NCBI GenBank assembly: GCA_013420905.1 | Contig: JAAXNY010000001.1 | Coordinates: forward strand, 372,001 to 436,000 | Length of the DNA stretch: 64,000 nt | DNA from: Collybia mongolica | Lineage: Eukaryota > Basidiomycota > Agaricomycetes > Agaricales > Clitocybaceae | Reading direction: 5' to 3' | Part shown: positions 7,269 to 40,221 of the stretch, in pieces | Layout of the letters: each line of letters opens with the position of its first letter | How positions within the stretch are numbered: the first letter of the stretch is position 1 | Made by a program: the position numbers and the translations under genes | The notes under the pieces: generated by a model | Databases searched by the model: none | Seen by the model: the letters and a program-made list of their open reading frames with translations, nothing else | Told to the model about the DNA's origin: nothing

Positions 7269-7300
7269 CATATTCTCTGTACTTTACACTCCCCCACATG

Positions 7301-9475: not shown

Positions 9476-9509
9476 TTGGCAGGTACTGACATCGATTCAG
9501 TCCGCCTCT

Positions 9510-11786: not shown

Positions 11787-12438
11787 TGATAGGGCCCGAA
11801 ATTGTTTGCACTTATAAAGTCGACAAGTAAGGCTATTAGTGTCATTTCTAATAACCAAGTAAGCGGTAATAAAGGATTAGAGTCGAGCTCCAAGACGGCT
11901 AATCAGAGTGAACTAGTCTAATGGATAATACACTATCAGTACAGAGGACTATGAGTACGGTCTATTATTAGTCCTATTCACCATGCCCGGTTACAACCTT
12001 GGTGTCTTAGTTCATAAGTAACCGTTGTAGTATGATATCATTAGTCTGGGGATCATCATTAATAGGAGAAGTAATTATAAATTCGGGACTTGCACAACCC
12101 GATCCTAGTCAGGGGTACTTGGTGTTAGATCCTAGTCAGGGGTACTTGGTGTTAACTACCGGAAGCGACGGGACCCCGTGAATAGCAACCGGGACAATCA
12201 GGAGGAGTAAATGACAGTGCCGCGCTGTTTTAAATAACGGAGCGCGCGGTCGCGACTTGATAAGAGTTTAGCCCGCTCTTTCAATATTTGATAAGTAACC
12301 AGTAAACGGCATAATTGGCACGCATGGCGCGCGCGCCAAGTTGTAGAGGACGCATCAGCATTGAATACAGATCCTTGGCGCGCGGGAGCGCGGTTCCGTG
12401 TAAAATTTACAATTCCGTATGATATTTAGTTTGTACAC

Positions 12439-12446
12439 TATAAATA
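12439..12446 (+). promoter_or_regulatory. TATA box in LTR A
   Basis: TATAAATA lies about two thirds into the LTR and is conserved at 22938-22945 in LTR B and 28394-28401 in LTR C. It probably sets the transcription start and hence the U3/R boundary. Confidence 0.55.
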
Positions 12447-12615
12447 GACTGTAGATAAGTAGCGCTAAGGAAGGAATCTTGCCCCCACTTCGCGCGACTA
12501 TAGAGTATACAAATCACATTTGTTAAAACACTATTGCGTGCCCGAATTAAGGATCAGATTGCTTCAACGTGTCTTGATTGGAATTGATTGGAGAACCACA
12601 GAATTAAAGAAACTT

Positions 12616-12759
12616 AGTTCACTTGGAACTTAGTACCGTATTGTCCGTTGGAATTACTAGGCACTTGGCCTTAGTGCACTTGGCACTGTATTGTTTGATA
12701 AGTCGCTTGGACTTATAGATCCGCTTGGGATCACTAATAATTGAACGTACACTTGGTAC
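12616..12759 (+). promoter_or_regulatory. Array of six hairpins with common RCTTG loop, LTR A
   Basis: Six short palindromes lie in 144 bp, each with loop ACTTG or GCTTG closed by C-G but with unrelated stems. They are AGTTC/GAACT (12616), AGGC/GCCT (12659), AGTGC/GCACT (12673), ATAAGTC/GACTTAT (12698), GATCC/GGATC (12718) and GTAC/GTAC (12747). A further hairpin CAGGTT-TTTG-AACCTG is at 12799-12814. Different stems with one loop indicate selection for folded RNA rather than for primary sequence. The array is downstream of the TATA box, hence probably in the 5' leader of the element RNA. Function is unknown. Confidence 0.8.
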
Positions 12760-13030
12760 TCAGTCTATTGGATCGAGAGATATTATAAATATACCTAGCA
12801 GGTTTTTGAACCTGTGTTGAAGCTTTTGTCTAAATCAAACCCATTGAGAGATCATTGGAAAGGGCTTTGGCTAGTACTATTCAAAGCTTAGTGCTTCTAA
12901 GCACTTGAACCCGAACTCAAAACAGGCGATTCCTACTGTTCGTGTGTTGATTGTTAGGTTTGGTGTGTGTGTGTGAGGGATTACATTTCATAGCATCAGC
13001 GCACTTATAGCCCAGGAGCCCCCTTTCATC

Positions 13031-13048
13031 TGGAGCCCACCGCGAGGG
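13031..13048 (+). other. Primer binding site of gypsy-2
   Basis: TGGAGCCCACCGCGAGGG starts 2 bases after LTR A. It is complementary to a tRNA 3' end of the form ...CGCGGTGGGCTCCA: CCA, discriminator U, and a 7-nt acceptor strand. Which tRNA this is cannot be fixed from the sequence alone. Confidence 0.75.
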
Positions 13049-13132: not shown

Positions 13133-14995
13133 TAGAGCGGAGAAAGTTTAGTCAATCTGTCTCAAGAGCCACGCCCACAAGCCAGCTCGTCAAACAGACT
13201 AACTAATCAGCCACTTGCAAGACAAGTAGCTACAAAAACGCGGCAGACTAAAAATTCGCAAAACGCTGGAGTAACAGAGTCGTTACCACCTCCTAGGCAA
13301 GCGCGCACACGAGGATCTTCACAACCAGCCTTTGGATCTTCAGGACCAAGGCAAGTATTTAGAACTCCAGAGCCCTTAGGAAACATATCGACTACTAGTA
13401 AACCAGTAGCGCGCGGAAGATCGTCCGTAGTAAACCCAGTAGCAAACCCGAACTCGTTAGCTACTCAGAACCGTTCAGTAATCATGACTGAACCCCCTCG
13501 TAAATATATGCCCCAACCAGGCGTCCGTGATGCACCAGTATTCAAAGGAAAAGAGCCCACGGGTTTAATCCGGTTTCTGGAGCGAATGGAGGTCCTATGG
13601 AAGGAGTGTAACATTACAAATGATGAAGAAAAGAAGTTAATGTTAGGAAAATATGCAGACCTACAATCAGAGAATGAGTGGAGGGCATTAGACCACTATA
13701 AGACAGGCACTTGGACGGATTTCAAGACAGAGTTGATCTCTAGTTATCCGGAAGCACTCGATCAAGTAGAAGGATCAGTAGCCAAGTTAGAAGCAGTGTG
13801 TCGCGCCAACCCACGTATTGGAGTAACCGATGAGGCCGCGCTGAAAAAGCTGAAGTGTGAATTCAAAGCAGAATCTATTAAACTCTTGGGAGTTAGGCCA
13901 CCTATTATCTCTAACCGAGAATTAGTTACCAAGTTCTTGGGATGTCTAGACGAAGTCTTCAGATCCCAAGTACAAGGAAGGCTAACCCTGCTAGGGAATA
14001 ATCAGTCTAATGCTACACAGGCAGGACAAGCCATTGCTACAAACAACCGAGCAGATCCTAATACTATTGCCGAAGCCGCTGCGCTCACGCGACAAAAAGG
14101 GGATCAGTACGATCTGGAGGAAGTTATAGCAACTGCAATCAGCATTTCTGAAGGTGTAGCCAACATGAATATTCCAGACACAAATAGATCGTTTATAACG
14201 TCCATAACAGCAACAGCAGCGCCCAAAATCAAAGTAGAGATGGATGAAATAAAACAACAAATAGTTAATTTGTTAGACCGTCTCCAAGTAAATGAGAAGA
14301 ATACAAGGAGTGGATTCGAGGATGTAATGAAAGCGCTTCAACAAGCAACTGTTCAGAACCATGCCACGAATAGCGCACCCCAGCAGCATCAGTATCAGAA
14401 TCAGTACGGAAAGCCTAAAGAAGGACAACCGCAAAGACCAAATGCGTATAAATGTCACTACTGTTTTACACCCGGACACTTCATAATGGCCTGTCCCGAG
14501 AAACAGAAACATTTTGAGGAAGGGAAAATAAAAACCAACGCAAATGGAGGAGTATGCTTACCAGACGGATCATATATTCCAAGAGAACCAGAAACGGTAT
14601 CATTGAAAGATAAAGTGGAACACTTCCATTCAAAGAAGGTAGCGGCCCTTTATTACGGAGATGTCACAGAAGGACCCGCTCCAGGAGTATTGTCCGTTAT
14701 GCAGTCACATAATGCAGTAGACAATAGTAACAACATTGGAACCTTGAAAGCCATAATGGCACAAATGGCACAATTTCAAGCGCAACAAATGTTAGGACAA
14801 CAGAGCACGCAAACTGCGTTGCCAGTACCGCCTCAGATGCAGAAACAGGAATATATAAATAATAACTATAATCCTACGGCAAAGAGCGCGCCGAATCCTG
14901 ACATAGTAGCCTTACAAGCACAAATGAGTACTTTATTAGGGCAGGTAGCAGAACTCAATAACCAAAACAAGGTTAAAGAGTCGGGTTTCAATTAG
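13133..14995 (+). CDS. gag: Gypsy-2 gag (nucleocapsid/capsid)
   Basis: The first ATG is at 13484, giving 503 aa. The same frame is open and protein-like back to a TAG ending at 13132, so the real start may lie upstream or behind a mutated codon. Residues 1-150 (from the ATG) resemble a retrotransposon gag helical region (VFKGKEPTGLIRFLERME). A CCHC zinc knuckle CHYCFTPGHFIMAC lies near residue 325, after a Gln-rich stretch. The C-terminus is Gln-rich. It precedes the protease, which is in the -1 frame. Codons are otherwise undamaged. Confidence 0.8.
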
Positions 14996-15000
14996 GTCCG

Positions 15001-16206
15001 ATGAAGGAGGCTAAGGAACACGCTAGACCTACGACTAGGTCGCGTTCCAAGAGACAGCCAGAGGACCGAAATAAAAACAGAAATAGTCGTCAAGAAAGTA
15101 ACGATTCGGAGAGTAGTCGGGATAGTAGCGAAGAGGAGTTGGTAGCGCCATCTCCTAGGAAAAAGAAAGTAAAATTTGTTGAACCATCAGTAAAGTCTCC
15201 AGTATGAAAAGAATTACCCTACATCGATGTGCCCGTGGTACCCTACATACCCCGGAGAACGGAACGCAACCCTGAACCAGTTGATCCGCTACCTAATTTT
15301 AACACTAAGCGCGGTCCGACTTATGAAACTAAGTCCCTGATAGAAGTAAAATTAAAAGGTGGCGATATAATTGCTAAAGTGTTAGACAACCCTATCACAT
15401 TGACCACGGGAGAGTTAATGGGCTCGTCAAAAACCATTAGAGATGGGATAAAGAATATTGTAACTGCCAGACGTAAGTCCCTCACCCAAAGGGACGCTAA
15501 CTTGCAAATAAACGGAATAGATGAGGAAGACGTCTTACCCTTTGGAGGGGACTGGGAACTTGATGATAACTACTTACGGCATGACGCGCTACCAGTAGAG
15601 TCAATCCCATTCCAGTCTTTCTTCATCTCGGAGTATGACCGCGGCGGAATACCTAAGGGATCTATAATATGCGGAGACCCAGTCCTACAGTATTTAGAAT
15701 CTTTACCAGCTGGGGAAGAGCCCAAACAGTTGTATGTAGCAAAAGAATCGGCCTCTTTGCGCGCAGTATATCCAGTAATAAATGGGGTAGGAACGGAGGA
15801 ATCTTTATTAGATGGGGGATCCCAAATAGTATCAATGGCTAAACAAACGGCTTTAGACTTAGATATTTCATGGGATCCGGACGTTGTCATACACATGCAG
15901 AGTGCTAATAAACAAGTTGAGAAAACAGCGGGATTAGCGCGCAATGTTCCTTTCTTGTTTAATGACATGGCCATCTACCTCCAAGTACATATCATAAATT
16001 CACCCGCATACAAAGTATTGCTCGGGAGACCGTTTGATACACTCACGGAAAGTCAGATCAAAAATGCTCGGGACGGGGGACAAGTAGTCACTATCACGGA
16101 CCCTAACACGGGAAAAAGGTGTACTATCCCTACCCATGCAAAGGGATCACCACCTAAGCTGTTGAAAAGACAACCGGAGCAGGATTTTCGGCCTTCGATA
16201 AATTAA
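15001..16206 (+). pseudogene. pol: Gypsy-2 pol: linker and protease region
   Basis: The frame is -1 relative to gag. A charged, Arg/Ser-rich linker (15001-15207) ends in a TGA (15205-15207). The same frame then resumes from 15208 to 16206. The aspartic-protease-like motif LLDGGSQIVSM is at about 15809-15840 and a VLLGRPF block follows at about 16017. The next domain (RT) is in another frame, so an indel lies near 16190-16206. Gag-pol expression in the living ancestor may have used a -1 frameshift near 14995, but this cannot be shown here. Confidence 0.75.
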
Positions 16207-17737
16207 TCCAAAGTGATCAAGGAGAGCTAGCCGTAGAAATTGCTGAAGATGAGAACGGAAACTTTATTATAACAGGTTATAGACACCCTACTGATAAACG
16301 GAATTTTGGTCACAAAGAACTTAGAGATGTCTTTTTGTCTAGAAGTGATGTGAACATGAATAGTACAGTACCTGAACGCGAATTACTAGCCACGTACTTG
16401 GCTTCCGTAGATGAGCGCGATGGACCAGTAATAAACTACGAGCAGAACAGCAGCGACCCAGCAAGTACACCCACTAGACCTATGACATACGCTCAAGAAC
16501 AGCCCATGATCAATAAAGCTTTAAGTAAATTAAAGCAGTGGCAAATTGGCACCAACAAGCGCGGTCTTGGACCGGCAACAAGTGAAAAGTGTAAGACTGA
16601 GCCCATGGATCAGCTAGTAGGAAAGAAGTATAAACCAGTACATTTGAAAACAAAACCAACACTGGCGGACCTGCCTGATAAATTTAGAATTATCAGAGAT
16701 ATAAAGGGTGACCCTTTAGCGGCCCTACCAGTTCTAACGCCTAACCCACCTCCGTTTAAACCAACTGGAAGGTATACTGAGGAAAGGCGCGCGGAATTCC
16801 AAAGGGTACACGAAGAAGAGAGCTTCTTAAAACCTAAAGAGATGGATATAATCCACGACTTTATGTGCAAACATAATGATGGTTTTGCTTGGAATGATAG
16901 TGAGCGCGGTAGCTTTAAGAAGGAATATTTTCCTCCCGTCGAGATACCAGTAGTCCCACATACGCCGTGGACAGAAAGGAACATTAGAATCCCACCAAGG
17001 ATCTATGAAGATGTTTGTAAAATCATCAAAACTAAAATTGATGCAGGAGTCTATGAGAGATCCAATTCATCATATAGGTCTAGATGGTTTACCGTATTAA
17101 AGAAAGGCCCAGGAAAGAAGCTTAGAATTGTACATAGTCTAGAACCGCTGAATGCAGTCACAATAGCGCACTCGGGCTTACCACCCGCTACCGAAGAACT
17201 AGCAGAACACTTCGCAGGGCGCGCTTGTGGCGGAATGATGGATCTATATGTAGGATACGATGAGAGGCCTTTAGCGGAAACCTCGCGCGATCTAACCACG
17301 TTCCAAACACCGTTTGGCACGCTGAGACTAGTAACACTTCCTATGGGATGGACGAATTCAGTTCCAATATTTCATGATGATGTCACATACATCCTACAGG
17401 ATGAGGTACCACATGTCACAATACCCTACATTGATGATGTACCTGTGCGCGGTCCAGCAACGCACTATGAACTGCCGGACGGAACAGAAGAAGAGCTACC
17501 TGGTGCTCCAGGTGTTAGGCGCTTCTTCTGGGAACATATGCAAAATGTAAATCGCGTCATACAGAGAATGAAGTATTCTGGAGGAACGTTTTCAGGATAT
17601 AAGTCTATGTTATGCGCAAGTGAAATTCTAGTGGTAGGACATAGATGTACCTATGAAGGACGAAAACCTACTACAGATAGAATCGGTGTAGTTGAAAGAT
17701 GGGGACCATGCAAAGATGTCAGTGAAGTACGCGCTTA
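16207..17737 (+). pseudogene. pol: Gypsy-2 pol: reverse transcriptase, 5' part
   Basis: RT blocks include WFTVLKKGPGKKLRIVHSLEPLN, split here as WFTVLKK and LRIVHSLEPLN. They also include GMMDLYVGYDERPL, FGTLRLVTLPMGWTNS and the catalytic YIDDVPV box with both Asp intact. The frame is open from about 16207 to the insertion point of a Tc1-type transposon at the TA at 17736-17737. Downstream of the transposon the chain continues in register with MGTIGVCRNFIKDFARIGQPI, the usual RT thumb/connection motif, at 19514. Without the transposon, RT to integrase would be one long frame. Confidence 0.88.
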
Positions 17738-18071
17738 CAGTGGCTCAAAAAACTGCCCCAATGTTTGTACATTTTTGAAAGATCAATATGGTATGAAGTG
17801 CTGACATAAGCAGGGGACCTGGGGTAATTATGTAAGATACTATGACATCGTGGCTTTCCAATGGACCCTGGATCATGTGATTTGGATCAATATCCATTAA
17901 GCTACAGTGGCTCAAAAAACTGCCCCAATGTTTGTACATTTTTGAAAGATCAATATGGTATGAAGTGCTGACATAAGCAGGGGACCTGGGGTAGTTATGT
18001 AAGATACTATGACATTGTGGCTTTCCAATGGACCCTGGATCATGTGATTTGGATCAAAACCCATTAAGCTA
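17738..18071. repeat. Tandem duplication of the left TIR
   Basis: The 167-bp unit 17738-17904 is repeated at 17905-18071 with only a few substitutions. The second unit starts at a TA (17903-17904). This suggests either self-insertion into a TA within the TIR followed by loss, or slippage. Confidence 0.9.
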
Positions 18072-18131
18072 TAGGCCAAACAAAATGATTACTCATTGGG
18101 GCAGTTTTTTGACCCTCTATTAATTTTCTAT

Positions 18132-19151
18132 CTAATACTTTGTATGACCACCTTTTGCCTTTATAACTGCTTGTATCCGCCTGGGCATACTTTCTATCAG
18201 GTTTTGGCATACCTCTGGTGGAATTTCACCCCACTCTTCAGCCAATCTATCCCACAACTCATGTACTCCTTTGGGTGGTGTCGGATATTCTTTAAGACGG
18301 CGCTTGAGATGTTCCCAAAGGTGTTCTATTGGATTCATGTCAGGGGATTGGGCAGGCCAGCCAAGGACTTGAATGTTGTTGTCTTCAAACCACTGTGTGG
18401 CCAGTCCAGATGTGTGTTTGGGGTCGTTATCTTGCTGAAAGTAGCGCTCGCCATCCACCATTTCCAACTTCTCAAAACTTTCCTGAACTCCACTCTCCAA
18501 AATTTCACAGTATTGAACCTTGTCCATGTTCCCCTGCACCTCTATGAGCTTTCCCACTCCATTCCACCCCATACAACCCCATACCATGAGGTTTCCTCCT
18601 CCTCCATGTTTGACAGTAGGTGATGTTGTTCTATCAGATGGTGGTTCTCCCCTTTGTTTCCAGACATAAACCTTTCCATCTGACCCAATCCTATTGATTT
18701 TGGTCTCATCTGTCCATAGAACCCTTTTCCAGTCCTCCACAGTCCAGCTTTCATGATATTTTGCAAACTGGAGACGCCGGATGCGATGGGCTCGTTTGAG
18801 AAGAGGAGCTTTCCTCTTTGTAGCAGCATAAAATTGATTTTCCTTGAGTGCATTTCTGACTGTCTGGGGTGTGACAGGATTGGGGATGATGCCATTGATG
18901 AATTGGGTAGCCTGAACTGCATTATCAAGCTTCCCTGACTTGATTTGACGAATAATTGACTGTTTGTCACGAACAGACAGCTTGGAGGGGCGGCCACCAA
19001 GGTTGTTTTCTTTGTTTCCATCCACATCTTTGCTGATCCTACTGATGGTACCCTTCCCTAGACCAGTTTTCTCCTTGATTTGATGCTGAGAATAGCCCTC
19101 ATTGAGGAGAGAAACAACAGTATTGTGCTGAGCAGTAGAAATGGCTTTCAT
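18132..19151 (-). CDS. Tc1-type DD34E transposase
   Basis: It is 339 aa with no interruption. The N-terminus has a bipartite helix-turn-helix (residues about 6-40, LLNEGYSQHQIKEKTGLGKG) and a GRPSK motif between the two DNA-binding subdomains. The catalytic triad is visible: D in LWTDETK, D in FQQDNDPKHTS, and E in SPDMNPIEHLWE, with 34 residues between the second D and the E. This is the cut-and-paste enzyme of the surrounding transposon. Length is typical of the family (about 340 aa). It ends 14 bp from the inner edge of the left TIR. Confidence 0.95.
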   Translation of the reverse strand: MKAISTAQHNTVVSLLNEGYSQHQIKEKTGLGKGTISRISKDVDGNKENNLGGRPSKLSVRDKQSIIRQIKSGKLDNAVQATQFINGIIPNPVTPQTVRNALKENQFYAATKRKAPLLKRAHRIRRLQFAKYHESWTVEDWKRVLWTDETKINRIGSDGKVYVWKQRGEPPSDRTTSPTVKHGGGGNLMVWGCMGWNGVGKLIEVQGNMDKVQYCEILESGVQESFEKLEMVDGERYFQQDNDPKHTSGLATQWFEDNNIQVLGWPAQSPDMNPIEHLWEHLKRRLKEYPTPPKGVHELWDRLAEEWGEIPPEVCQNLIESMPRRIQAVIKAKGGHTKY

Positions 19152-19512
19152 GATGGTGGTAAGAGGTCAAGAAGATGATTGAACCAATTCCAACATGTCA
19201 AATTGATACAAATAAAGTCACATGACATTGTTTATTCTTCCCACAGTCCATAATGTTCTTGCATTGGATCATAAATGCCAGAATAATGGAAAATAAGATA
19301 AGGGTCAAAAAACTGCCCCAATGAGTAGCCATTTTGTTTGGCTTATAGCTTAATGGATATTGATCCAAATCACATGATCCAGGGTCCATTGGAAAGCCAC
19401 GATGTCATAGTATCTTACATAATTACCCCAGGTCCCCTGCTTATGTCAGCACTTCATACCATATTGATCTTTCAAAAATGTACAAACATTGGGGCAGTTT
19501 TTTGAGCCACTG

Positions 19513-21924
19513 TACATGGGAACTATTGGTGTATGCAGGAATTTCATTAAAGACTTCGCCCGTATAGGCCAACCAATTCAAAAGTTAACTAGAAGTAGTG
19601 AACCTTGGATATGGGGGCCTGAGCAAGAAGAAGCGCAGCAGCTATTGTTAGACGCACTTAAAAATAGCCCCGCGCTCCGTCCAATTAATTACACCTGGAA
19701 TACGCCAGTGGTATTGTCAGTAGATACGTCATGGAAAGCCGTAGGCTACTATATCTATCAGGAAGACCCTGATATACCTGGAAGAAAGCACTATGCTAGA
19801 TTTGACTCGATAACTCTGAGTGAGCGCGAAGCGCGCTTCTCACAACCCAAACGAGAGCTATTCGGATTGATGAGAGTTCTAATGGCATGTTATTATTGGT
19901 TTATTGGAGTACGAAATTTGGTAGTGGAAACGGATGCAAAGTACATTAAGGGGATGTTATCAAACCCAAGTCTAGGACCTAATGCAACAGTAAATAGGTG
20001 GATTGATAGGATACTTATGTTCCACTTTACTCTGGTTCATAAAGCTGGTAAAGGCTTTGGCCCAGATGGTCTGTCAAGACGAGACGCGCGGCTAGGGGAT
20101 CCTGTCTACCCGGACCCAGACGATGGTTACGACGAACCCTCAGGTCCTTTAAGGTTTATCAACCCAACGGAAGGATTGGATGACCCTTTGGAGCTGTCAG
20201 ATTTTAAAGAGGAGATCGACACGCGCGGCGGATATTTATTCCAACTTGCGAAGGAAATCTCTGATTTTGAAGTTGAAGTAAACAATGCCTGGGCTGGTGA
20301 AGCAGCATTTATTGGAGAAGTAAAACAGCACTTAGGTTTAGGACGGTTCGGTATTCAAAGAGAAGCTTATCTAAAGCAACTTGTAAATACTACTGTCATA
20401 CCCGATGAAAAGTTTAAATATGACCCTAATGTAAGGGAAGTATATGACGAGTCTAAACGAACACCTACGGCGCAGGAACAGGATAAAAACCTACCTTTAA
20501 TAAAAGAATGGTTAAAAAGACCACAAAAGAGACCAAAAGGAATGACAGATCGCGCCTACCTAAAGTTTGCAAGGCAGGCGTCTAATTTCTTTTTGGATCC
20601 AGAAGGCAGGATGTATAGGAAAAATATTGATAGCGCGCACCAGCTTGTTGTTGATAAAAATCACCGAACATATATGATGAAGGCATCTCACGATTCTGTT
20701 GGACATAGGGGTTTCTATGCAACAAAATCCTTAATAGATAAAAGATTTTGGTGGCCAGAAATGGAACGCGATGTATCATGGTATGTGAAGTCATGTCACA
20801 TCTGTCAGACAAGGCTCTTAACTTTGTTGAGAATCCCTCCTGTCATAACCCACATGCCGTCTATATTCCAAGTATTGCATGCGGACACCATGTATATGAG
20901 CCCATCGTCTAACGGTTATAAATACATTGTCCAAGGAAGATGTGCGCTGTCTTCGTGGATGGAAGGCGCGCCCCTCAAATCTGAGGATGGCAAGACCTTG
21001 GGAAGGTGGCTGTTCGAAGAAGTAATTTGTAGATGGGGTTCCCTAACGGAAATTGTAACGGATAATGGTCCTGCCTTTGTCGCAGCCAAAGCGTGGCTGG
21101 AATCCAAGTATGGTATTACAGGAATAAGTATATCACCATACAATTCCAAAGGAAATGGGATCGCCGAGCGCGCACATTGGGATGTGCGTCAAGCTGTCTT
21201 CAAAGCTACAGGTGGTGATGTAAAGAAGTGGTACTACTTCTTCCACCATGTAATGTGGGCTGACAGGATTACTATACGGAAAGGGACGGGTTGCTCCCCC
21301 TATTTTATGATTACGGGCGCGCACCCAACCTTGCCGTTAGATATTATTGAAGCCACTTGAGCGCAGGCTCTAGCTAAGCACGTCCAGCATGTGGCCGATA
21401 TGAGGAAACGTATCAATATAGAAAAATGAAGGAGACTATTACAGTATGAGAAGGATCACAGCGCGACCATCAGAGACTATGATTTCAAACCAGGAAGTTT
21501 AGTACTAGTTAGAAATACCGAGGTCGAAAGTTCGCTCGATAAAAAGCTGAAGCCACGGTACCTGGGACCAATGATAGTCCTGAGACGAAACCGCGGGGGA
21601 GCCTATATTGTTTGCGAAATGGATGGATCGGTGTGGCAACATAAAGTGGGGGCGTTTAGGGTTATTCCCTATTTTGCTAGGAGTACAATTGAACTGCCGG
21701 ATAATCTGCAAGATCTAATAGACATCTCTAGCGAAACACTAAATGCTTTAGTGGAATCGAAAGATCCCGCTAATAGGCAAGTTTACAAGGAGCGTGACTA
21801 TACTTTTGACAGAGTCCAATTGGATCAGTCCGATTCAGAGTCAAGCTCTAGTGAGAACACTGAGGAGGGGATAGCGCCGGCGCTACCACAAACTACTATG
21901 TCACACCGGAAGTTGCATAGGTGA
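19513..21924 (+). pseudogene. pol: Gypsy-2 pol: RT end, RNase H and integrase
   Basis: The frame runs from the transposon edge through the RT connection, RNase H (VVLSVDTSWKAVGYYIY, VVETDAKYIKGML, HKAGKGFGPDGLSR) and integrase. The integrase zinc domain has H-x3-H (SHDSVGH) and C-x2-C (CHICQ). The DDE core has D in LHADTMY, D in VTDNGPAF and E in GNGIAERAHW. A TGA at 21358-21360 (probably from Trp or Arg) and a second at 21427-21429 break the C-terminus, which continues to 21924 ([21 protein letters not shown]). The acidic tail has no chromodomain that I can see. Confidence 0.9.
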
Positions 21925-22070
21925 TAAATCAGTATGGAAACAGAAGCAGTAAAGACAGTATAAGCAACTAAGCGAAGTAGTAAGGACAGTGTTAAGCCGA
22001 GTAAAGACAGTAATACAAAGGAGCGTGGGGAGGGACACCATAACTCAGGAGGAAGTTAATTGGACTGTCC
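21925..22070. other. Spacer between pol end and antisense gene 2
   Basis: It holds short AGTAAAGACAGTA-type repeats and GGAGGAAG. It probably contains the converging 3' UTRs of pol and of the antisense gene. Confidence 0.4.
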
Positions 22071-22312
22071 TCAAGCAGATATGAAGTCGTCTTCAACCTT
22101 GGGCAAGGGCAAGTCAGCCGGAGCTACCTCCTCCTTATCATTGTCATCCTGGTCATGGACTTCCGTAGCGCTCGCAGTGGCAGCCTCGTCAGAGCCTCCC
22201 TCCAGAGCGGCCTCGTTCATTAGATCGTTGAGGCGAGTAACCTCGTCCATAGTGGCATCACGACGCTTCAATAAGAAGGACACTGTATGACTGATCTCCT
22301 CCAACTCAGCGC

Positions 22313-23528
22313 TGATAGGGCCCGAAATTGTTTGCACTTATAAAGTCGACAAGTAAGGCTATTAGTGTCATTTCTAATAACCAAGTAAGCGGTAATAAAG
22401 GATTAGAGTCGAGCTCCAAGACGGCTAATCAGAGTGAACTAGTCTAATGGATAATACACTATCAGTACAGAGGACTATGAGTACGGTCTATTATTAGTCC
22501 TATTCACCATGCCCGGTTACAACCTTGGTGTCTTAGTTCATAAGTAACCGTTGTAGTATGATATCATTAGTCTGGGGATCATCATTAATAGGAGAAGTAA
22601 TTATAAATTCGGGACTTGCACAACCCGATCCTAGTCAGGGGTACTTGGTGTTAACTACCGGAAGCGACGGGACACCGTGAATAACAACAGGGACAATCAG
22701 GGGGAGTAAACGACAGTGCCGCGCTGTTTTAAATAACAAAGCGCGCGGTTGGGACTTGATAAGAGTTTAGCCCGCTCTTTCAATATTTGATAAGTAACCA
22801 GTAAACGACATAATTGGCACGCGTGGCGCGCGCGCCAAGCTGTAGTAGACGCGTCGGTATTGAATACAGATCCTTGGCGCGCGGGAGCGCGGTTCCGTGT
22901 AAAATTTACAATTCCGTATGATATTTAGTTTGTACATTATAAATAGACTGTAGATGAGTAGCGCTAAGGTAAGGAATCTTGCCCCCACTTCGCGCGACTA
23001 TAGAGTATACAAATCACATTTGTTAAAACACTATTGCGTGCCCGAATTAAGGATCAGATTGCTTCAACGTGTCTTGATTGGAATTGATTGGAGAACCACA
23101 GAATTAAAGAAACTTAGTTCACTTGGAACTTAGTACCGTATTGTCTGTTGGAATTACTAGGCACTTGGCCTTAGTGCACTTGGCACTGTATTGTTTGATA
23201 AGTCGCTTGGACTTATAGATCCGCTTGGGATCACTAATAATTGAACGTACACTTGGTACTCAGTCTATTGGATCGAGAGATATTATAAATATACCTAGCA
23301 GGTTTTTGAACCTGTGTTGAAGCTTTTGTCTAAATCGAACCCGTCGAGAGATCATTGGAAAGGGCTTTGGCTAGTACTATTCAAAGCTTAGTGCTTCTAA
23401 GCACTTGAACCCGAACTCAAAACAGGCGATTCCTACTGTTCGTGTGTTGATTGTTAGGTTTGGTGTGTGTGTGAGAGAGATTACATTTCATAGCATCAGC
23501 GCACTTATAGCCCAGGAGCCCCCTTTCA
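22313..23528 (+). repeat. Gypsy-2 LTR B, solo LTR inside antisense gene 2
   Basis: It is 1216 bp with TG...CA ends, flanked on the left by GCGC (22309-22312) and on the right by GCGC (23529-23532), a 4-bp target duplication. It has neither a PBS after it nor a polypurine tract before it, so it is a solo LTR left by LTR-LTR recombination. The TATA box is at 22938-22945 and the hairpin array at 23116-23259. Confidence 0.9.
23116..23259 (+). promoter_or_regulatory. Six-hairpin RCTTG array, LTR B
   Basis: All six stem-loops seen at 12616-12759 are conserved base for base in stems and loops. The nearby substitution (GTCTGTTGG for GTCCGTTGG) falls between hairpins. Confidence 0.75.
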
Positions 23529-24673
23529 GCGCGGTAGTTTAAAAGCATCCTACCAAGGGCTTGCTTGGTGTGCGACATGGGATCGCCCGCGTCTGCAATC
23601 AAGCGCGCCCGCGCTAAGACTACATCGTGCTCCTTGGAGGGACGGAAGTCAATAAAGACACGAGTATCTGATGCACAGTCGGTATAAATTTAGAACCATC
23701 TATTATTAGAAAACGTACCCTCAGCAGATACCTTTGGATCTTCATCCGGGGTGTCCTGCCTCGTACGCTTTTTGGGACGAAGAGTGCTGCCGCGATTGAG
23801 CTCGGAACGCTTACCGTCCTGTAGGAATAAGAAACAAAGTAATAGACAGAGCAAAAACAAGAATGGGTACCTTGATGGCAGCCTTTTCAGCCTTAGTCCT
23901 TTTGACACGGGGAACCTTAATGTTCTCCTTCTCCTTGCGGCTACGGGTGATTGGTCCTTCACTAAGGAGACGACTAGTCACTGATCCAGAGACAGCAGCA
24001 CTAGCCGTAGCGCCGGAATCAATGACCATATTCTTGAGTAAAGAAGAGACGCCATTGAGTATGTCGCGCACTGACAGCGCGGTAGCTAAAAAGAAACATA
24101 CCGAGTCAGTACCAGACATTTCAATGTCACCGTCATATTCACCGCCAGCAATGACCTCGCCTGGAATAGTGGTACCATCCGCTTCACCACCAGTAGCAGG
24201 GACCTAGTACCAGAAAACCATGGTTTAAAGAGCAGTACAGTACGAGATGAGGTAAAAAGCACGCACCGCGGTTTGAGACAGGTGCTCAGTGCGGACCTTT
24301 TCACGGTGACGGTGAATAGCGGCAGTCAGAGTCACAATGTTACGGTAAACAGGCTCTTGAAGTAACTCGGGGTATACATGTTGTAGTCCCTGGAATGCCT
24401 TACGGACGCCAAAAATAACATTCTGCCAGGACCGCTCCGTCAAAACCAATTTGGACTCAGTCAGGAGTAGCTGTAAATTGTAAGAGTTGGTTACAAAAAC
24501 GGTGTTTTAAAAAGTGTAATTGGTAAAAAGTGTACCACGGTTTCGCCTAACTTCCGGACGCTGACCCTTTGTTCAACAAGGGTGTCCATCGATAAATGAG
24601 CTTGAAAGGTGTGCCACTGAGCTTGGACCATCTTGAAGTTCTCGATGTCTTGATAGTTGGGGGGGCTAGTCAT

Positions 24674-25365
24674 AATAATGCAGAGGAAATTGATTCTTCG
24701 AACCAGAACGTTGTAAAGAGAGTATAATAGAGTCGGGCGATGTCTTGGGACAAAAAGCACAGCCAGTGCCCTTTTTTATACCTCTACGACTAGAGAAGCG
24801 CTACCCAGTCTCTCATTCGTTGCGCGCGTTCTATCCCCAGAAAAATCTATACATTTCAACTGAACAGGTCCGAGACGCGTGCCTAATTGAAATGCTGGGC
24901 CCAATTGAAAAAGGAGCTCCATAAAAATTCATGTGGAGCGCGGCAGTGTCCGCATGACAACTGGGACAGTTGTTGTCAGTGTTGAGGGGGAGATGGGTAT
25001 AAGCAAAATCGATTTGGAAAAACCTACCAAGGTTACAAGGATTGAAATAGATTGTCTATAAAAAGTCAGTGATCGCGCCACGGTCTTAATGATCGAGAGA
25101 ATTGCACCACAATTAAACTGTACTATTTATAACTTAAGTAGCCGGTGCAAGGGCGGAAGCTTTCTTATGAAGACAATAGAACAACGGGTAAACCAATTGT
25201 ATTGTTTATAGTCCAGGGGACTGTATGTAGAAACATGTGTTGGACTTCAATTAATAAAATTGAAGCCCAACAAAAGGCGGGGGAATAAGTAGTATGTAAG
25301 GGCACAGGGGCCCGGGAAAACACAAGTAGATAAAAAAAAAAAAAACATAGGGGGGCGCGGCGCGG
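24674..25365. other. Spacer between the two antisense genes
   Basis: About 690 bp without a convincing frame. It separates the stop of antisense gene 1 from the start of antisense gene 2, which run head to tail. A run of 16 A near 25331-25346 lies on the plus strand. The promoter of antisense gene 2 should lie in the left part. Confidence 0.5.
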
Positions 25366-27320
25366 CTACTCCTCCTCGCTGTCAGGCACGGACAAAGAGG
25401 AACTTGACGACGAAGAACCGTCATCAACCTCTGCTTCTTCCTCCAAGGGCGGCCATGGGAGGTTCTGGAAATCCGCATAGAAGAGGAGAGCGCTCTCCGT
25501 GGCTGGCGTAGTCAGCAAGAGGTTTTGAAGGCCCTCCAGGCCTTCCTCCTCGTACAACTTACCGATGGTGCCAACTATGCGCGCCAACAAGGAGTTGCGC
25601 ATTTCAAGCGCGCGGTTAGCGGCCTGAATGACCTCCGCGGCAAGAGAGTCCGCGTCGCCTAGCTGAGCATAGGCTTCAGCAACCGCTAGTAGAATAAGTA
25701 AAATCATTAGTAAACAAAAAGACAGAAAGAAAATGGCTTACTAGAAATGCCCGCACCAAGCATCGGCCCCAGATCCTCACGAAGCCTAGCGCGCTTCTGG
25801 GGAGTGAGACTGAAGCTGCACTTCCCCTTCTTGGCGGTGGCGCATTCAACGCACGGTTTACCCCAACCATTGAAGGAGCACTTGATGTCGCCGCGGGTGG
25901 CGCACATCGTGCAAGGATAGCCCACCTAGTAAGAATGATCAGTAACAAGAAATAAAAGAGTAATGAACATACGGTAGAGCGCCGAGGCGCAAGGTCAGCC
26001 AGCAGGGAGGTAATAGGGGATTGTAGCGGCGTCAGCTCCCAGTTGGGAACCAGCGCGTGCTTGCGGCGTGTCGCCTGAACCCTATCCCTAGAACGAGTGG
26101 TCTTACGTGACCGGCGAGGAGAAGGGGCCGCGGGAGGTAACAACTCCGCGAACCCCTCTTGAGCCAACTGGCGCACGATCTCTTCATCAAAGAGCCGGAG
26201 CTCGGGGACCTCAACCTTTACCGGCGGCTGCCCAGAGGACTAAGGAGATAAAAATGAGTAAAAGTAAATGAGTTCAAAAGAGAAAAGAGACATACCGGAC
26301 CTGCTTCCGAGGGACGCAGCGCGGCATCACGGCCAGCCCCCTGGGCGCGCGACATGTCGGACTAGAATTTTGAAAGCAAGTCAGGAATAATGTGAAACCC
26401 GTAAAGTAAAGGATGGTATATACCTGGGGAACCGTGCGGCCTTTGCCCTTGGACCCTTCGTTACGCTTCCGCTTGAGGGGCTATTGAAATAAGTCAACCA
26501 CAGAAGAAAAGTAATAAAAAGCAGTATTAGACGAACCGCTGGTACCAAGACCGGGGAGTGCGCTGGCAAGGGCGTGGCGGACCAACTGTCCCGGTACTGA
26601 TGGTAACGGCACGGTGCGCCAACCATGCGAGGAGGGACGAGGAAAGTATCCTGAAAGATACTTTCACCATTGTCGCGCTCGAAGCGCGACCCCACCTGGT
26701 CCAGGACTTGCTCCACAGTGGGAGCCTGGCCCTAAAGTAAAAGGTAGTCAGCTTGACAAGGGCAGGCAGAGTAAAGAAGTAAACAAGTCACTTACCAGAA
26801 GAATGGAATTGTGGCCCAGGTCAGTTGATATGACCATGCGCCAGGAAGACCACGAAGCCTCGCGCGCGTCAACAGGGATGCGCATCACTTGAAGGTGAAG
26901 CGCGCGCAGGAGGAGAATAGCCGGATATGGCAGCGAAAAACGCACGCCACGGACCACACCAGTGATGGCATCCTGAGACCAGTAAATAAGTAAAAGGTTT
27001 TAATAAGTAAAAGATGGGCGTACGATAAGCATGGAGCAGTGATCGACGAAGTCAATCAACTCGTCGAGGTCAAGGGGGCCCTGATGGTCCATACGGGGCG
27101 CGAGCTCCTCGGCCATAATAATCCACCCTTGCTCCATGGCGACGAAGACATCGCCCTCGGCATCTTCAAGGAGGTCGGAAAACGAGGGGACCGGCTGGTC
27201 CACATAGACCATAGTGGGGGAACGGCCCTCAGTCGGTAAAATCGCGGCAGAGAGCGAGAGGGACAGCGCGGAAGGCGAGCGCAGGGCACGAGCCATGGCA
27301 GAGGTGGAAGTAGAAGACAT
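25366..27320 (-). CDS. Antisense gene 1 of gypsy-2: intact eight-exon gene, Cys-rich Zn-cluster-like protein
   Basis: Exons on the minus strand are 27320-27024, 26972-26796, 26731-26537, 26480-26424, 26361-26296, 26239-25973, 25925-25742 and 25685-25366. All introns are 45-65 bp with GT and AG ends. The exons total 1563 nt in a single frame, about 520 aa, with no stop. Exon 4 encodes a basic NLS-like segment (PLKRKRNEGSKGKGR). Exon 6 is Arg/Lys-rich. Exon 7 has a cysteine cluster C-x2-C-x7-C-x8-C-x2-C-x7-C resembling a fungal Zn-cluster DNA-binding motif. The C-terminus is helical, then acidic and Ser-rich. It lies between integrase and the 3' LTR, opposite to the element. A nuclear, perhaps DNA-binding role is inferred. 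Confidence 0.82.
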
Positions 27321-27768
27321 TTGGTTTAGAAAAGTTGGAGCGTTTGAGCGATGCGAATAGCAAAGAAATTTAGAAATGGGCTATAAAGTCCAAATTGTCT
27401 AAAACTTAGCAAGGGCGTGAGCTTTTAAAACGCACAACCCTGCATTGCGAAGTTCTAAAGGACAAGCAGGAGTACCAATCTCTTGCTGAAGTGTCAGAAA
27501 CGTAATGAGAGAAAGGTTCAGATGACTGAAATATCTGTAAAGCGATGTCCGAATGTCAAGTATTCTCTCAGGAGCTGTATATAACTGTCACGATCCTGAT
27601 GGGAAGTAAACCTCTGGGCTCGATCCCAACCTCGCGCGCCTACCTGTCTAAAAGCGGAACCGTTGTAACCTTGTACTGAAAGATTAGACGCATGCAGACC
27701 CGAAGTATTGGACCAACATGCCGGCAAAGAGAGACTGAGGACAGTCTACATTTGTGGTATGGGGGAGA
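27321..27768. promoter_or_regulatory. Antisense gene 1 upstream region and gypsy-2 polypurine tract
   Basis: The last bases before LTR C, GGGGGAGA at 27761-27768, form the polypurine tract that primes plus-strand DNA synthesis. The rest is noncoding and must hold the promoter of antisense gene 1, which starts at 27320 and reads away from the LTR. LTR A and LTR B lack such a tract on their left. Confidence 0.65.
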
Positions 27769-28983
27769 TGATAGGGCCCGAAATTGTTTGCACTTATAAA
27801 GTCGACAAGTAAGGCTATTAGTATCATTTCTAATAACCAAGTAAACGGTAATAAAGGATTAGAGTCGAGCTCCAAGACGGCTAATCAGAGTGAACTAGTC
27901 TAATGGATAATACACTATCAGTACAGAGGACTATGAGTACGGTCTATTATTAGTCCTATTCACCATGCCCGGTTACAACCTCGGTGTCTTAGTTCATAAG
28001 TAACCGTTGTAGTATGATATCATTAGTCTGGGGATCATCATTAATAGGAGAAGTAATTATAAATTCGGGACTTGCACAACCCGATCCTAGTCAGGGGTAC
28101 TTGGTGTTAACTACCGGAAGCGACGGGACACCGTGAATAACAACAGGGACAATCAGGGGGAGTAAACGACAGTGCCGCGCTGTTTTAAATAACAAAGCGC
28201 GCGGTTGGGACTTGATAAGAGTTTAGCCCGCTCTTTCAATATTTGATAAGTAACCAGTAAACGACATAATTGGCACGCGTGGCGCGCGCGCCAAGCTGTA
28301 GTAGACGCGTCGGTATTGAATACAGATCCTTGGCGCGCGGGAGCGCGGTTCCGTGTAAAATTTACAATTCCGTATGATATTTAGTTTGTACACTATAAAT
28401 AGACTGTAGATAAGTAGCGCTAAGGAAGGAATCTTGCCCCCACTTCGCACGACTATAGAGTATACAAATCACATTTGTTAAAACACTATTGCGTGCCCGA
28501 ATTAAGGATCAGATTGCTTCAACGTGTCTTGATTGGAATTGATTGGAGAACCACAGAATTAAAGAAACTTAGTTCACTTGGAACTTAGTACCGTATTGTC
28601 CGTTGGAATTACTAGGCACTTGGCCTTAGTGCACTTGGCACTGTATTGTTTGATAAGTCGCTTGGACTTATAGATCTGCTTGGGATCACTAATAATTGAA
28701 CGTACACTTGGTACTCAGTCTATTGGATCGAGAGATATTATAAATATACCTAGCAGGTTTTTGAACCTGTGTTGAAGCTTTTGTCTAAATCAAACCCATT
28801 GAGAGATCATTGGAAAGGGCTTTGGCTAGTACTATTCAAAGCTTAGTGCTTCTAAGCACTTGAACCCGAACTCAAAACAGGCGATTCCTACTGTTCGTGT
28901 GTTGATTGTTAGGTTTGGTGTGTGTGTGTGAGGGATTACATTTCATAGCATCAGCGCACTTATAGCCCAGGAGCCCCCTTTCA
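27769..28983 (+). repeat. Gypsy-2 LTR C (3' LTR)
   Basis: It is 1215 bp with TG...CA ends, preceded by the polypurine tract and followed directly by gypsy-1 gag sequence (CTGTG...). The TATA box is at 28394-28401 and the hairpin array at 28571-28714. Hairpin 5 has GATCT in place of GATCC, turning one C-G pair into a U-G pair. It differs from A and B at several early positions, but agrees with A against B in its last half. Confidence 0.92.
28571..28714 (+). promoter_or_regulatory. Six-hairpin RCTTG array, LTR C
   Basis: Same six hairpins as in LTRs A and B. The only stem change is a C to T in hairpin 5 that keeps pairing as U-G in RNA. Confidence 0.75.
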
Positions 28984-32560: not shown

Positions 32561-32772
32561 TCCAATGAGCGGTCACGTGAGGGATTGTTGACGCGTTGTT
32601 TATACGGCTTGGCCTTGTTCGCGGTGCTGCGACTCTTCCCGAAACGTCGAACTTGTGGTTCAAGCTTCAACGCTATTGCGCCATCTAGACCTCGGTAACC
32701 TGATACAGTGCTCAGAAATACAAGAACGCACAACGTCCCGGACTCACGGAATAACGCCACAGAAGTGAAAAA

Positions 32773-35700
32773 ATGGTCAAGAACGACATCTCCGACAGAA
32801 GCCTACGTCTTGCGAAAACCGAGGATTTTCTGACCAGGCTATTTCCTGTTGGTGCCTCCGTCATTGACAGAGCATACGAAAAACTAGTTGCTAACGGTGG
32901 TTATGACGTCGCAGAAAAGAAGTGGAAGGATCTACCAGAGGCCATAAAGAAAAAAAGCCTTTACAATGGGCCGTTTGTGAAAACGGCGGAATCCATCAGA
33001 GTGGCGAACACATCATTTGACAAGATCACACTCAGGTGCAGATGGATCGACAGGAACACCAAGGCTCCAAAATCGCGCGACCAAGATACATCGCCAGCCA
33101 TACGGCCTGATATTCTATGCATCCTTGAAATGGGAAAAGAAGAGCAAGAGAAATGGGAAGCACTCCTAAGTACCGATTCGAAAAAAAGGGAAGAGGTGGA
33201 GGAAGAGGAAGAGAGGAAGACAGAAGACAAAGAGGAGACAGAAAGAAATGAGGAGACGGAAAGGGCAGCAATGGAAAATGAAGAGACGGAAAGGGCAGCG
33301 ATGGAAAATGAAGAGACGGAAAGCAAAGAGGAGGGGGAAGGCGAAGACGGGCAAGAAGACAAGGAAAAAAAGCATAAGGTTAATATGACCTTTCTTTGCC
33401 CAAACCACGCTCACATCTCCACAGAGCAATCAAGATAAAGAAATAACCGTATGGTGGCTTCGAGTCAATGTCCCTATCGAAATCAAGCCGATCCGGGGTA
33501 AAGACACACTGAAGTATGTTGAACGGCTGCTTGGTTATATGCGGCAAGTTCTCAGGAAGCAGGCTGATCGACGTTTCGTCCCGGGGCTCCTGCTATCTAG
33601 CACTGGGCTCCAAGTGTGGCTTTGTGATAGATCGGGTGTACTCGGAACGCATAAGACAATCGATATACACAAGGTATGAGTAATTCAACTTTCAACACCA
33701 TACAAGGCTGACTTGATTGATCAAGGACCCGAAAAGTTTCATCCGAATCATCTTAGCATGCTCGCTCCTGCCACCGGAACGCCTCGGTTGGGACCCAACG
33801 ATGAGGCTTTGTCGCCAACCAATTAATCCTCAGTCTCCGGAATTCATACATTCCTACGATCCATCCGTCAAATTATCTGACTATCACAACTCCGTCTACG
33901 ACACGAATTGGGTCATTGAGATGCCTTCAAAGGCTGAACCTAATAAGCGCGAGGAATACATCACTGTCCGCGCACTCAGTATTGAGAGCGCCGAATGTAT
34001 GTCTGGACGCGCGACGATTGTCTGGGCTGTAATCAAAGTCGATGATATGAAGTTCAGAGCTCCTCCTCACAAAGTAAGTCATTTTTGGAACCGCACCGGC
34101 ATAGATCCTTACTTTTCTTGGAGATCTACGTGTTAAAGCAATGTTGGCGTCCCACAACAGGAGCTAATGAAGGGGATTTCTTTCCAGACGAGTCCAAAAC
34201 ACGGGGCGTTCATCTTGGGAGGATCCATTCGTACGAGGATGTTGAGCACAATGGGGATGTGATTGATACGAAGAATTTTGTTCGCCAAGGCCTGGATCAT
34301 TGCCTACCCGTTGTAGCCAATGTCAACACTAATGGCAAGAGAACGAATAAGGCTCTTGAAAACGCAGAAGAGCAAGAAGTACACCTAGATATTTCCTTGA
34401 CCAGAGATCAAATTTGCGCGGCTGCGTGCACTTTAGATATAAATCCTACCTGGCGGACTTTTGCACGACTTTTGCTAGACGACTACGGATGGCCACTGGA
34501 AGGCTTTAGGGACCTGCCTGAGCTAATGACTGTGTCAGAACAACTCCTTGCCAGTGAGTTTCTGTTTTTTCACTACGCACTCGTGATATTGACAAGATGG
34601 TTCCATTCCCAGCACATCGATTACTTTATTTTCTCGGCACACTACATCGGGACATCAGTTCAGGGAATGTACTCATTTGCCTGTCAAACGTTGATGGTGT
34701 CATAACTACCGAAGGACGATTGATTGACCTGGACTATGCCAAACATGTTGATCGCTTCGTCCCTTCTTTACTTCGCCAGGTTAAACAGCTGGACGACATA
34801 CCATCCAAGGACCCTCAAATGTTAGATTATACACGAAAGTTTTTTGAGAAGCATGCTAAAGCAAAGATGTCTGATGAAGTTATCGATGCACTCAGTAGCT
34901 GCTGCATTGACCAAAAATTGGTGGCCGCAGTATTAAAATACAACCCATGCTTACGAAGTACAACGGTTCGGGTCGTCTTGTCACCGATTATGCACTATGT
35001 TCACGGTTCGCTAGCTCTCCGGACGCGACATTGGTATGCTAGACGAGGTAAATGCTATACACCTAATCATGGGTTACACTAGCTCACTATAATTTCAGGA
35101 TCAATACCTGCCTGATTTTTCCGAGAGAGTCGCTCAGAACCGTCAGCGAAGTGTAAGTCCTATCTTATCCGTTTGTGTAACAATTAATCATGGACTAATC
35201 TCAGGCAACCCTTCCGTATGCGAGCGCAGAAATTCTAAGAGGGTTTCGCATGTTCTGCACGGAAGAAAATGCAATCACCGTTCACAATGCTGTCCACGAT
35301 CTAGAGGCATTCTTTTGGGTTCTAGTGTCCATCTGCATAACAAGGGGCGGCCCAGGCGGAAAGCGTCGTGAGGAGTTAAAACCTGGCACCTTATCCACCC
35401 CGGAAACCCAGAAACTCTTCCTCATCGTTGACTGCTTCTTCTATACAGAGAAAGTCACCCGCTTGATATATAACAAGCAGCAACTGTTCTTCAAAGACCA
35501 ATTCGAGGAGTATGTTCTACCACATGTCCACCCCTACTTTGAACCCTTGAAGCCTTTACTCCTGAGGTGGTGGAATATTCTTCTAATTGCATATGAATAT
35601 CCTGCATTTGAGGCGATACACGATTGGTTCCTGGATGCTCTGAGGGATACTATCTCAGTGTTGAAGGAGCACCCGCCTGAGACAGACCCAAGATCTGCGG

Positions 35701-35924
35701 ATGTCGATGCATTCCGCGAAAGGGATCTCAGGTCTCTCCAATATTTCCCCAATCAGGACAATACCAATCGAAAATCCCAAGGCATGACACAAGATTTACC
35801 ATCCAACAGAGATATGTCGTCACACATCTCACGCAATTACAGTGGCAACGTGGTGGAGCAATCATCATCCGGTGACCCTCCATCCCCGACACCACTGTTG
35901 AAGAAGCGGAAGATGGGAACATGA
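32773..35924 (+). pseudogene. FunK1-type protein kinase, copy 1 (5' end damaged)
   Basis: Exons follow the pattern of copy 2: 32773 to about 33379, then exons near 33430-33674, 33723-34072, 34131-34557 and 34620-35050. Two further exons follow near 35101-35152 and 35206-35924. The N-terminal half matches other FunK1 proteins and ends in a Glu-rich stretch. Kinase signatures are YVLKQCWR (Lys of subdomain II), LHRDISSGN (catalytic loop) and LIDLDYAK (metal-binding Asp). The C-lobe reads LPYASAEIL and HDLEAFFWVL. Compared with copy 2, about 100 bp holding the start codon is missing and one base is deleted near 32766. Only the internal ATG at 32773 could start an in-frame, shortened protein. Confidence 0.72.
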
Positions 35925-39900: not shown

Positions 39901-40221
39901 AAATTCGAGGCGATACATGATTGGTTCCTGGATGCTCTGAGGGATACTATCTCAGTGTTGAAGGAGCACCCGCCTGAGACAGACCCAAGATCTGCGGATG
40001 TCGATGCATTCCGCGAAAGGGATCTCAGGTCTCTCCAATATTTCCCCAATCAGGACAATACCAATCGAAACTCCCAAGGCGCAATGTGGGATTTATCGCC
40101 CAGCAAAGACATGTCATCACGTACTTCACATGATTACCTCGGCAACATGGTGGAACAATTGCCACCCCAAGAGCCTTCGTCACCAACACCCGCCTCGAAG
40201 AAGCAGAGGATGAAATTATGA
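36967..40221 (+). CDS. FunK1-type protein kinase, copy 2
   Basis: Exons are 36967-37674, 37722-37970, 38023-38370, 38420-38849, 38910 to about 39325, a short exon near 39398-39449, and about 39503-40221. The start MTDEIYDRPFND has a clear ATG. An acidic repeat (EEESEEEES) lies at residues about 190-235. Kinase motifs are YVLKQCWR, LHRDISSGN, LIDLDYAK and HDLEAFFWVL. The HRD, Asn and metal-binding Asp are all present, so catalysis is possible. A TAA at 39323-39325 replaces the CGA of copy 1, just before an intron whose donor I cannot fix. It is either a true stop or avoided by an earlier donor (GTAACA). FunK1 kinases are fungal-specific; substrates are unknown. Confidence 0.75.

Follow-up and report, generated by a model that had tools for sequence, protein, structure and literature searches.

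Can an element that is copied through RNA keep genes that are full of introns? The question is raised by a 64,000-nt stretch of the Collybia mongolica genome (contig JAAXNY010000001.1, positions 372,001 to 436,000; hereafter the window), in which a retrotransposon carries two genes, here called gene 1 and gene 2, that read against it between its integrase and its 3' long terminal repeat (LTR). Our results support a model in which this copy belongs to a Ty3/gypsy family with two antisense accessory protein genes in that position, which would be expressed from antisense transcripts and whose products would be nuclear regulators of the element; we put the probability of this reading as a whole at roughly 0.7. 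Gene 1 and gene 2 belong to the element as accessory genes and are not host genes trapped in it, and their position, copy number and intact frames, together with selection on the proteins they encode, are documented across the family. The broader implication is that an RNA-copied element is able to keep many-intron genes through repeated copying when they lie antisense.

Two spliced antisense genes at a fixed place and under selection

The element is Ty3/gypsy-like, with LTRs of ~1.22 kb, a primer binding site, gag-pol, a polypurine tract and 4-bp target duplications. In the window it runs from an LTR (11787-13028) through gag-pol and integrase (which ends at 21924) to gene 2 and gene 1, both antisense, and ends, past the polypurine tract, in an LTR (27769-28983); a third copy of the LTR (22313-23528) lies inside gene 2. 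The features of the two-gene region are listed below. Counts for the promoter region refer to the 24 of 30 loci that were colinear enough to align.

22071..24673, minus strand: gene 2; exons 24673-24536, 24470-24267, 24203-23871, 23818-23719 and 23667-23529 + 22312-22071 (flanking the inserted LTR)
24101-24033, minus strand: optional in-frame intron of gene 2, within exon 24203-23871
22313..23528, plus strand: LTR 2, solo-type, in the final exon of gene 2; GCGC duplications at both edges
24769..24782, minus strand: TATA-like motif upstream of gene 2, a possible gene 2 promoter; TATAAAAA(A)GGG in 24/24 aligned loci
25366..27320, minus strand: gene 1, 8 exons, 1563 nt, 520 aa (copy alignments, splice-site check); exons 27320-27024, 26972-26796, 26731-26537, 26480-26424, 26361-26296, 26239-25973, 25925-25742 and 25685-25366, all introns GT-AG
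25742..25925, minus strand: gene 1 exon 7, encoding a six-cysteine motif; six Cys constant in 28/28 copies
27321..27768, no strand: spacer of 448 bp from the gene 1 start to the 3' LTR, with the polypurine tract (GGGGGAGA) at its end; junction the same in 24/24 aligned loci
27769..28983, plus strand: LTR 3, the 3' LTR (blastn self-comparison, LTR search)

The layout recurs throughout the genome, which was searched as 45,972,033 bases in 26 contigs, the window being part of it. The family has 283 exact LTR starts, 84 of them directly after an exact polypurine tract. An antisense gene 1 start lies inside 62 of these 84 junctions, 449-871 bp away; for 60 the distance is 449-501 bp. Three more junctions have a gene 1 DNA match at 449, 451 and 451 bp, which brings the total to at least 65 of 84. 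Viewed from the gene, 62 of the 74 exon-1 matches listed (250 in all) are paired with an exact polypurine tract and LTR; of the 12 without such a neighbor, the one inspected is 453 bp from an LTR. On the other side of the block, antisense gene 2 begins 385-391 bp past integrase at 28 places and gene 1 follows 666-705 bp beyond gene 2 at 23, as judged by eye among the 40 top-ranking places for each feature. Elsewhere, four long stretches (L031-L034) keep the order from the end of reverse transcriptase to the 3' LTR, without LTR 2. An earlier note, made from the sequence of the window, had proposed two spliced antisense genes between integrase and a 3' LTR with its polypurine tract, and had named as damaging the outcome that the homologues occur only as ordinary chromosomal genes or that no other copies share the layout. 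Neither of these turned out to be the case. The constant spacing, the asymmetry between codon positions described below and the at least 40 places with gene 1 bear the proposal out, as does the uniform junction of tract and LTR, and gene 1 accompanies at least 65 of the 84 family junctions.

The first genome search returned 42 gene 1 matches at no fewer than 40 places (40 of 130 first-look candidates were scored), and 30 copies were fetched. Gene 1 had been described as eight GT-AG exons forming one open frame of 1563 nt, and both splice sites and sum proved correct: the exons total exactly 1563 nt, without an internal stop, in 28 of the 30 copies. The exceptions are L023 (9 nt longer, one stop) and L025 (35 nt shorter, 11 stops). 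Automatic gene models of 1503 nt and 1518 nt were dropped, the eight-exon frame being the one kept in 28/30 copies. Other defects occur in 9 of the 28: L009 has lost its start codon, L014 its stop codon, and seven have AT in place of GT at one or more donors. This leaves 19 of the 30 with start, stop and all 14 splice sites preserved. All seven introns are present in every fetched copy as well as in both diverged copies, and their lengths differ between copies (intron 1, for example, is 51, 59 or 34 nt).

Dozens of copies carry introns that can serve as a neutral yardstick, which allowed a direct measurement of selection on the proteins. In the 28 copies of gene 1 that remain without L023 and L025, CpG sites vary at 77/99, 78/94 and 108/123 positions for codon positions 1, 2 and 3, and at 12/13 in introns (275/329 in total), a pattern that may reflect heavy methylation of cytosines in the copies, with deamination. 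Because most CpG sites vary in the family, non-CpG sites were tallied separately. Among these, 22/421 vary at codon position 1, 20/427 at position 2, 52/397 at position 3 and 45/379 in introns, that is, 5.0% at positions 1+2, 13.1% at position 3 and 11.9% in introns. Fisher tests separate positions 1+2 both from position 3 (p = 1.4e-6) and from introns (p = 3e-5) but do not separate position 3 from introns (p = 0.66); these p values are guides only, since the copies are related. The introns, which hold few CpG, look neutral only with CpG sites excluded: over all sites, variation is 3.1% in introns, 6.5% at position 3 and 3.2% at position 1, so that introns fall below position 3 and not above position 1.

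Gene 2 was aligned in 14 copies, ten chosen from 40 places listed and four from the long stretches. It is free of internal stops in 12 of them (L037 and L040 have one stop each), with in-frame deletions in L040 and L044 and GT-AG at every splice site of all 14. Under the revised gene model, variable non-CpG sites number 14/325, 8/340 and 29/330 at positions 1 to 3 and 27/217 in introns, and the asymmetry between codon positions is again clear (Fisher p = 3.8e-4). A comparison of the dN/dS type across copies, which the earlier note had suggested, gives a ratio of nonsynonymous to synonymous polymorphism (pN/pS) of 0.33 in both genes (pooled 0.33 for gene 1; 0.334 for gene 2 in the revised model and 0.336 in an early one). 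Selection therefore acts on the proteins encoded by gene 1 and gene 2, and the copy survey and codon statistics led us to reject chance open reading frames (ORFs).

Gene 2 also has a relative outside this genome, the hypothetical protein BDZ94DRAFT_1234893 of Collybia nuda, which was the only one to emerge from 7,998 scored candidates. Automatic splice prediction for gene 2 gave models that were unstable from copy to copy and partly wrong, and intron 4 was set by homology. The previously described sum of six exons and 1083 nt was recovered exactly on an intact copy, without use of the interrupted one, and the Collybia nuda protein backs its exon 1-2 junction and intron 4. However, the 69-nt 'intron 3' is in frame and open, and its second half aligns with the relative, which favors five exons and 1152 nt; across its full length, the five-exon model is 63% identical to the relative, and the early model is 55% identical. 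Thus, the six-exon structure is reproducible, whereas gene 2 probably has five exons.

Expression, putative function and rival explanations

How could introns survive in an element that is copied through RNA? In the genomic sense RNA the antisense introns would appear as CT...AC and would be invisible to the spliceosome. Left in place by the spliceosome, they would survive reverse transcription, so that each new copy would inherit a gene spliceable only from an antisense transcript. The earlier note held that the genes must be transcribed from promoters of their own, which is an inference. For gene 2 it gains support from the TATA motif, which stands ~100 bp upstream of the start in 24/24 loci (in 20 of these it is one A shorter than in the window), and from the ~477 bp upstream of the gene, where 27/427 non-CpG sites vary, nearly as low as at coding positions 1+2. 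Gene 1, on the other hand, could be driven by an antisense promoter in the 3' LTR. The LTR-side half of its 448-bp leader is conserved (12/196 non-CpG sites vary) and the start-side half is not, so that its promoter may lie within or close to the 3' LTR. A specially conserved promoter immediately upstream of gene 1 was considered and rejected (31/201 sites vary).

The nature of the products is less certain, but we suggest that both proteins are nuclear and regulate the element. Neither contains a strongly hydrophobic segment (best 19-residue hydropathy 1.43 and 1.23). The gene 1 protein is basic around residues 224-238 and 306-324, has 11 acidic residues among its last 40 and contains the motif C-x2-C-x7-C-x8-C-x2-C-x7-C, with all six cysteines in 28/28 copies; the gene 2 protein is basic at ~201-245 and has an acidic tail. 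It is this combination, of no strongly hydrophobic segment, a basic central stretch, an acidic tail and, in gene 1, a zinc-cluster-like six-cysteine motif, that points to nuclear regulators. The likeliest role of the gene 1 protein would be DNA binding, perhaps to the element's own LTR, with control of the element's transcription, and the gene 2 protein may be its helical partner.

Several points weigh against the reading of the two genes as antisense-expressed regulators. Their expression from antisense transcripts is predicted from DNA sequence and the rules of splicing; conservation does not place a promoter in the 225 bp next to the gene 1 start, which are not specially conserved (31/201 non-CpG sites vary); and the two lowest-identity gene 1 copies fetched (86-87% identity) are both broken. 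The putative regulator role is read from composition and a motif. The whole gene 1 protein matched no Pfam family at E up to 1 and the gene 2 protein (early model) none at E up to 10, no notable PDB match was found for either, and the gene 1 protein had no relative at E 0.001 among 7,996 candidates scored out of 5.8 billion proteins. The usual spacing between the second and third cysteines of Zn2Cys6 clusters is x6, whereas it is x7 here, and gene 1 exon 7 gave no match to Zn_clus or any other Pfam family at E up to 10, so that its resemblance to Zn2Cys6 is one of spacing only. AlphaFold models of exon 7 and of the Collybia nuda relative were unusable, with a mean predicted local distance difference test score (pLDDT) of 45.7 and 40.4. 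Single exons produced two weak Pfam matches well below the cut-off, CRF-BP_N and HTH_32.

Could the two genes be something other than a resident regulatory pair? Their intron-rich structure is like that of an ordinary fungal gene, and their ultimate origin may be a host gene acquired long ago. Nevertheless, host genes or fragments caught by chance, or between unrelated LTRs, have next to no claim as an explanation, given that gene 1 occupies at least 40 places, holds a fixed spot by the polypurine tract and LTR and is under selection across copies; none of the copies proved to be an ordinary gene, one having been inspected of the 12 exon-1 matches that lack an exact tract-and-LTR neighbor. It is only slightly easier to credit that a separate transposon landed in an ancestral element. 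The block is discrete, lying between integrase and the polypurine tract, but the inverted repeats found in copy L031 are all short and imperfect (14-17 nt, 82-88%) and do not bound it, and Pfam searches found no transposase-like domain in either protein. An env-like role, as in an errantivirus-like element, was rejected because the extra genes are antisense and neither product has a strongly hydrophobic segment.

A different kind of alternative accepts the genes as part of the element and disputes what they do. The antisense transcripts might matter and not the proteins, with double-stranded RNA, formed with the genomic RNA, tuning or silencing the element; antisense RNA control is a proposal already made for plant elements that have antisense ORFs (PMC7264820), and it could operate alongside the proteins. 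Pairing alone, however, would not yield codon positions 1+2 that in both genes are far tighter than position 3 or the introns, nor a gene 2 protein conserved in Collybia nuda, which disfavors RNA pairing as the sole function and makes it improbable in our view. We consider it unlikely, if less strained, that the proteins are accessory but serve nuclear entry or integration-site choice, for example by steering the integration complex to N-CG-N sites or to methylated chromatin. Both proteins have basic stretches, and insertions favor N-CG-N, a 4-bp target with CG at its center: 151 of the 199 LTR starts that are not after an exact polypurine tract follow CGN, when the CG frequency in the window is 4.6%, and NCG comes after 169 of 376 exact LTR ends, the remainder of which includes 5' LTR ends at the primer binding site. 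LTR 2 in the window has its target at 22309-22312 and 23529-23532. Yet nothing ties either protein to target choice, and single-base target choice usually belongs to integrase itself, which weighs against this alternative. Regulation of the element by nuclear products thus remains our preferred reading. A bolder version of it, which we offer tentatively and at somewhat less than even odds, is that an agaricomycete retrotransposon lineage carries a permanent two-protein nuclear regulatory module encoded by multi-exon antisense genes. Their antisense position would be what allows genes with introns to outlast retrotransposition, with splicing as a switch that yields protein from the antisense transcript only and the gene 1 protein as a zinc-cluster-like activator or repressor of its own LTR.

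The window copy and its surroundings

The remaining parts of the element in the window are as follows.

11787..13028, plus strand: LTR 1, the 5' LTR of the window element (blastn self-comparison); begins TGATAGGGCCCG
13029..13048, plus strand: primer binding site region, adjoining LTR 1; present downstream of the 5' LTR in 4/4 elements, in one with small changes
13136..14995, plus strand: gag-like ORF with a CCHC zinc knuckle (Pfam zf-CCHC_2 E 8.4e-6, marginally short of the cut-off)
15208..16206, plus strand: protease-region ORF (Pfam gag-asp_proteas weak, E 0.009, below the cut-off)
16158..17735, plus strand: reverse transcriptase, split by a DNA transposon (ORF; Pfam RVT_1 weak, E 0.003, below the cut-off)
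17736..19514, minus strand: Tc1/mariner-like DNA transposon within pol (terminal inverted repeats; Pfam DDE_3 E 1.5e-12, HTH_Tnp_Tc3_2)
19515..21924, plus strand: RNase H and integrase (Pfam RT_RNaseH, RT_RNaseH_2 and Integrase_H2C2 above the cut-off; rve below)

The pol order of protease, reverse transcriptase, RNase H and integrase is that of Ty3/gypsy (Metaviridae), although the protease, RVT_1 and rve matches are only weak. Hallmarks of the group are consistent across four elements: LTR pairs, primer binding site and polypurine tract are present in 4/4 and a matching 4-bp target site duplication in 3/4, the fourth (C1:1694311-1708522) having unlike flanks and no matching duplication. Their LTR pairs differ at 2, 13, 5 and 1 of ~1216 sites, so some insertions are recent. 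Pol in four other copies is open to its end in two (1192-1193 codons), is open for 1051 codons past an upstream break in a third and has one stop in the fourth; the reverse transcriptase parts of the window match four other copies at 96.7-98.6%. A search at the integrase end (21430-21921) for a chromodomain, the mark of the chromovirus clade that includes Boty, gave no Pfam chromodomain hit at E up to 1; the matches there, to SH3_Tf2-1 and CBP_BcsF, were weak and fell short of the cut-off. Species-named relatives of pol among 120 matches listed are agaricomycete (for example Candolleomyces, Galerina, Armillaria, Moniliophthora, Cyclocybe and Mycena), and a scan of viral contigs with the integrase found no relative. 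In copy L031, a partial LTR at 9426-9934 lies inverted, directly adjoining the 3' LTR.

The copy in the window is damaged, in keeping with the broken pol described earlier. Its pol is disrupted twice: the Tc1/mariner-like element has inserted at 17736-19514, and integrase has lost 54 nt, which creates a stop. The insertion sits in reverse transcriptase, one of its ends is tandemly duplicated, and its transposase frame (18132-19166, minus strand) is open over 344 aa. The integrase stop at 21358-21360 marks the site of the loss, and comparison with copy L031 shows that the lost piece is GT...AG-ended; the likeliest account is that sense RNA was spliced at a cryptic intron ahead of reverse transcription. 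Full-length integrase matches without the 54-nt piece occur at three places, both tandem copies in the window (one near 10830) and, by match length, C13:1989570.

The claim that an LTR had inserted into gene 2 also stands. Because GCGC lies at both flanks of LTR 2, and because LTR 2 is missing from all four long stretches compared, it must have inserted into the window copy's gene 2. The segment 10300-13028 duplicates 20826-23528 (integrase end, part of gene 2 and LTR) at 98% identity, the integrase part being identical. This tandem repeat would fit unequal recombination of LTR 2 with the 5' LTR of the element, and LTR 1 is probably a product of tandem rearrangement. Elsewhere in the window, a second, different gypsy-like pol lies in pieces upstream (4513-9426, minus strand; ORFs judged by eye), and two host-like gene copies, 85% identical, stand in tandem at 32699-35928 and 37021-40225; we take these to resemble fungal FunK1-type kinases.

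Comparison with known antisense genes

The closest parallel by position is Boty, a Ty3/gypsy element of Botrytis, which is described as having an additional antisense gene, brtn, between pol and the 3' LTR (PMC7264820, PMC8365987, PMC4227169). As here, a fungal gypsy element has an extra antisense gene in that interval. The likeness is one of position and description, and the two differ in that Boty has one such gene and an ascomycete host, whereas there are two genes here. The brtn gene reportedly has an intron. The pol of Boty is described as carrying a chromodomain (PMC4227169), in contrast to none detected here.

In plants, antisense ORFs are described for Retand, Grande, RIRE2 and PvRetro13, and the texts give the Retand product TRP28 as predicted to bind DNA and the Grande gene 23 protein as nuclear (PMC7264820, PMC11963269). 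Unlike Retand, neither gene 1 nor gene 2 has a match to TRP28 (PF04195), nor to any other Pfam family above the cut-off. The plant genes are described as ORFs, and the word 'intron' does not occur in either main text (PMC7264820, PMC11963269), as against seven introns in gene 1 and four or five in gene 2. A further case is HBZ of human T-cell leukemia virus type 1, an antisense gene of an LTR retroelement whose product is a nuclear regulator (PMC11963269). Its likeness to our genes would be functional only. HBZ is spliced.

The earlier note knew of no fungal element with two intron-bearing antisense genes. Our literature searches agree: they turned up neither a basidiomycete element that carries antisense genes nor one that has two with several introns each, which is weak evidence given that they covered titles and abstract openings and few subscription journals; for a single gene, Boty's brtn is a fungal precedent. 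The word 'antisense' occurs nowhere in the texts on Laccaria (PMC3411680), fungal chromoviruses (PMC2864245) and Coniophora (PMC5689174). Thus, single antisense accessory genes were already known from plants and from Boty, and what is new is a pair of multi-intron ones in an agaricomycete element. Antisense accessory genes of LTR elements have so far been known mostly as orphan ORFs of obscure meaning, and their use to the element can now be tested.

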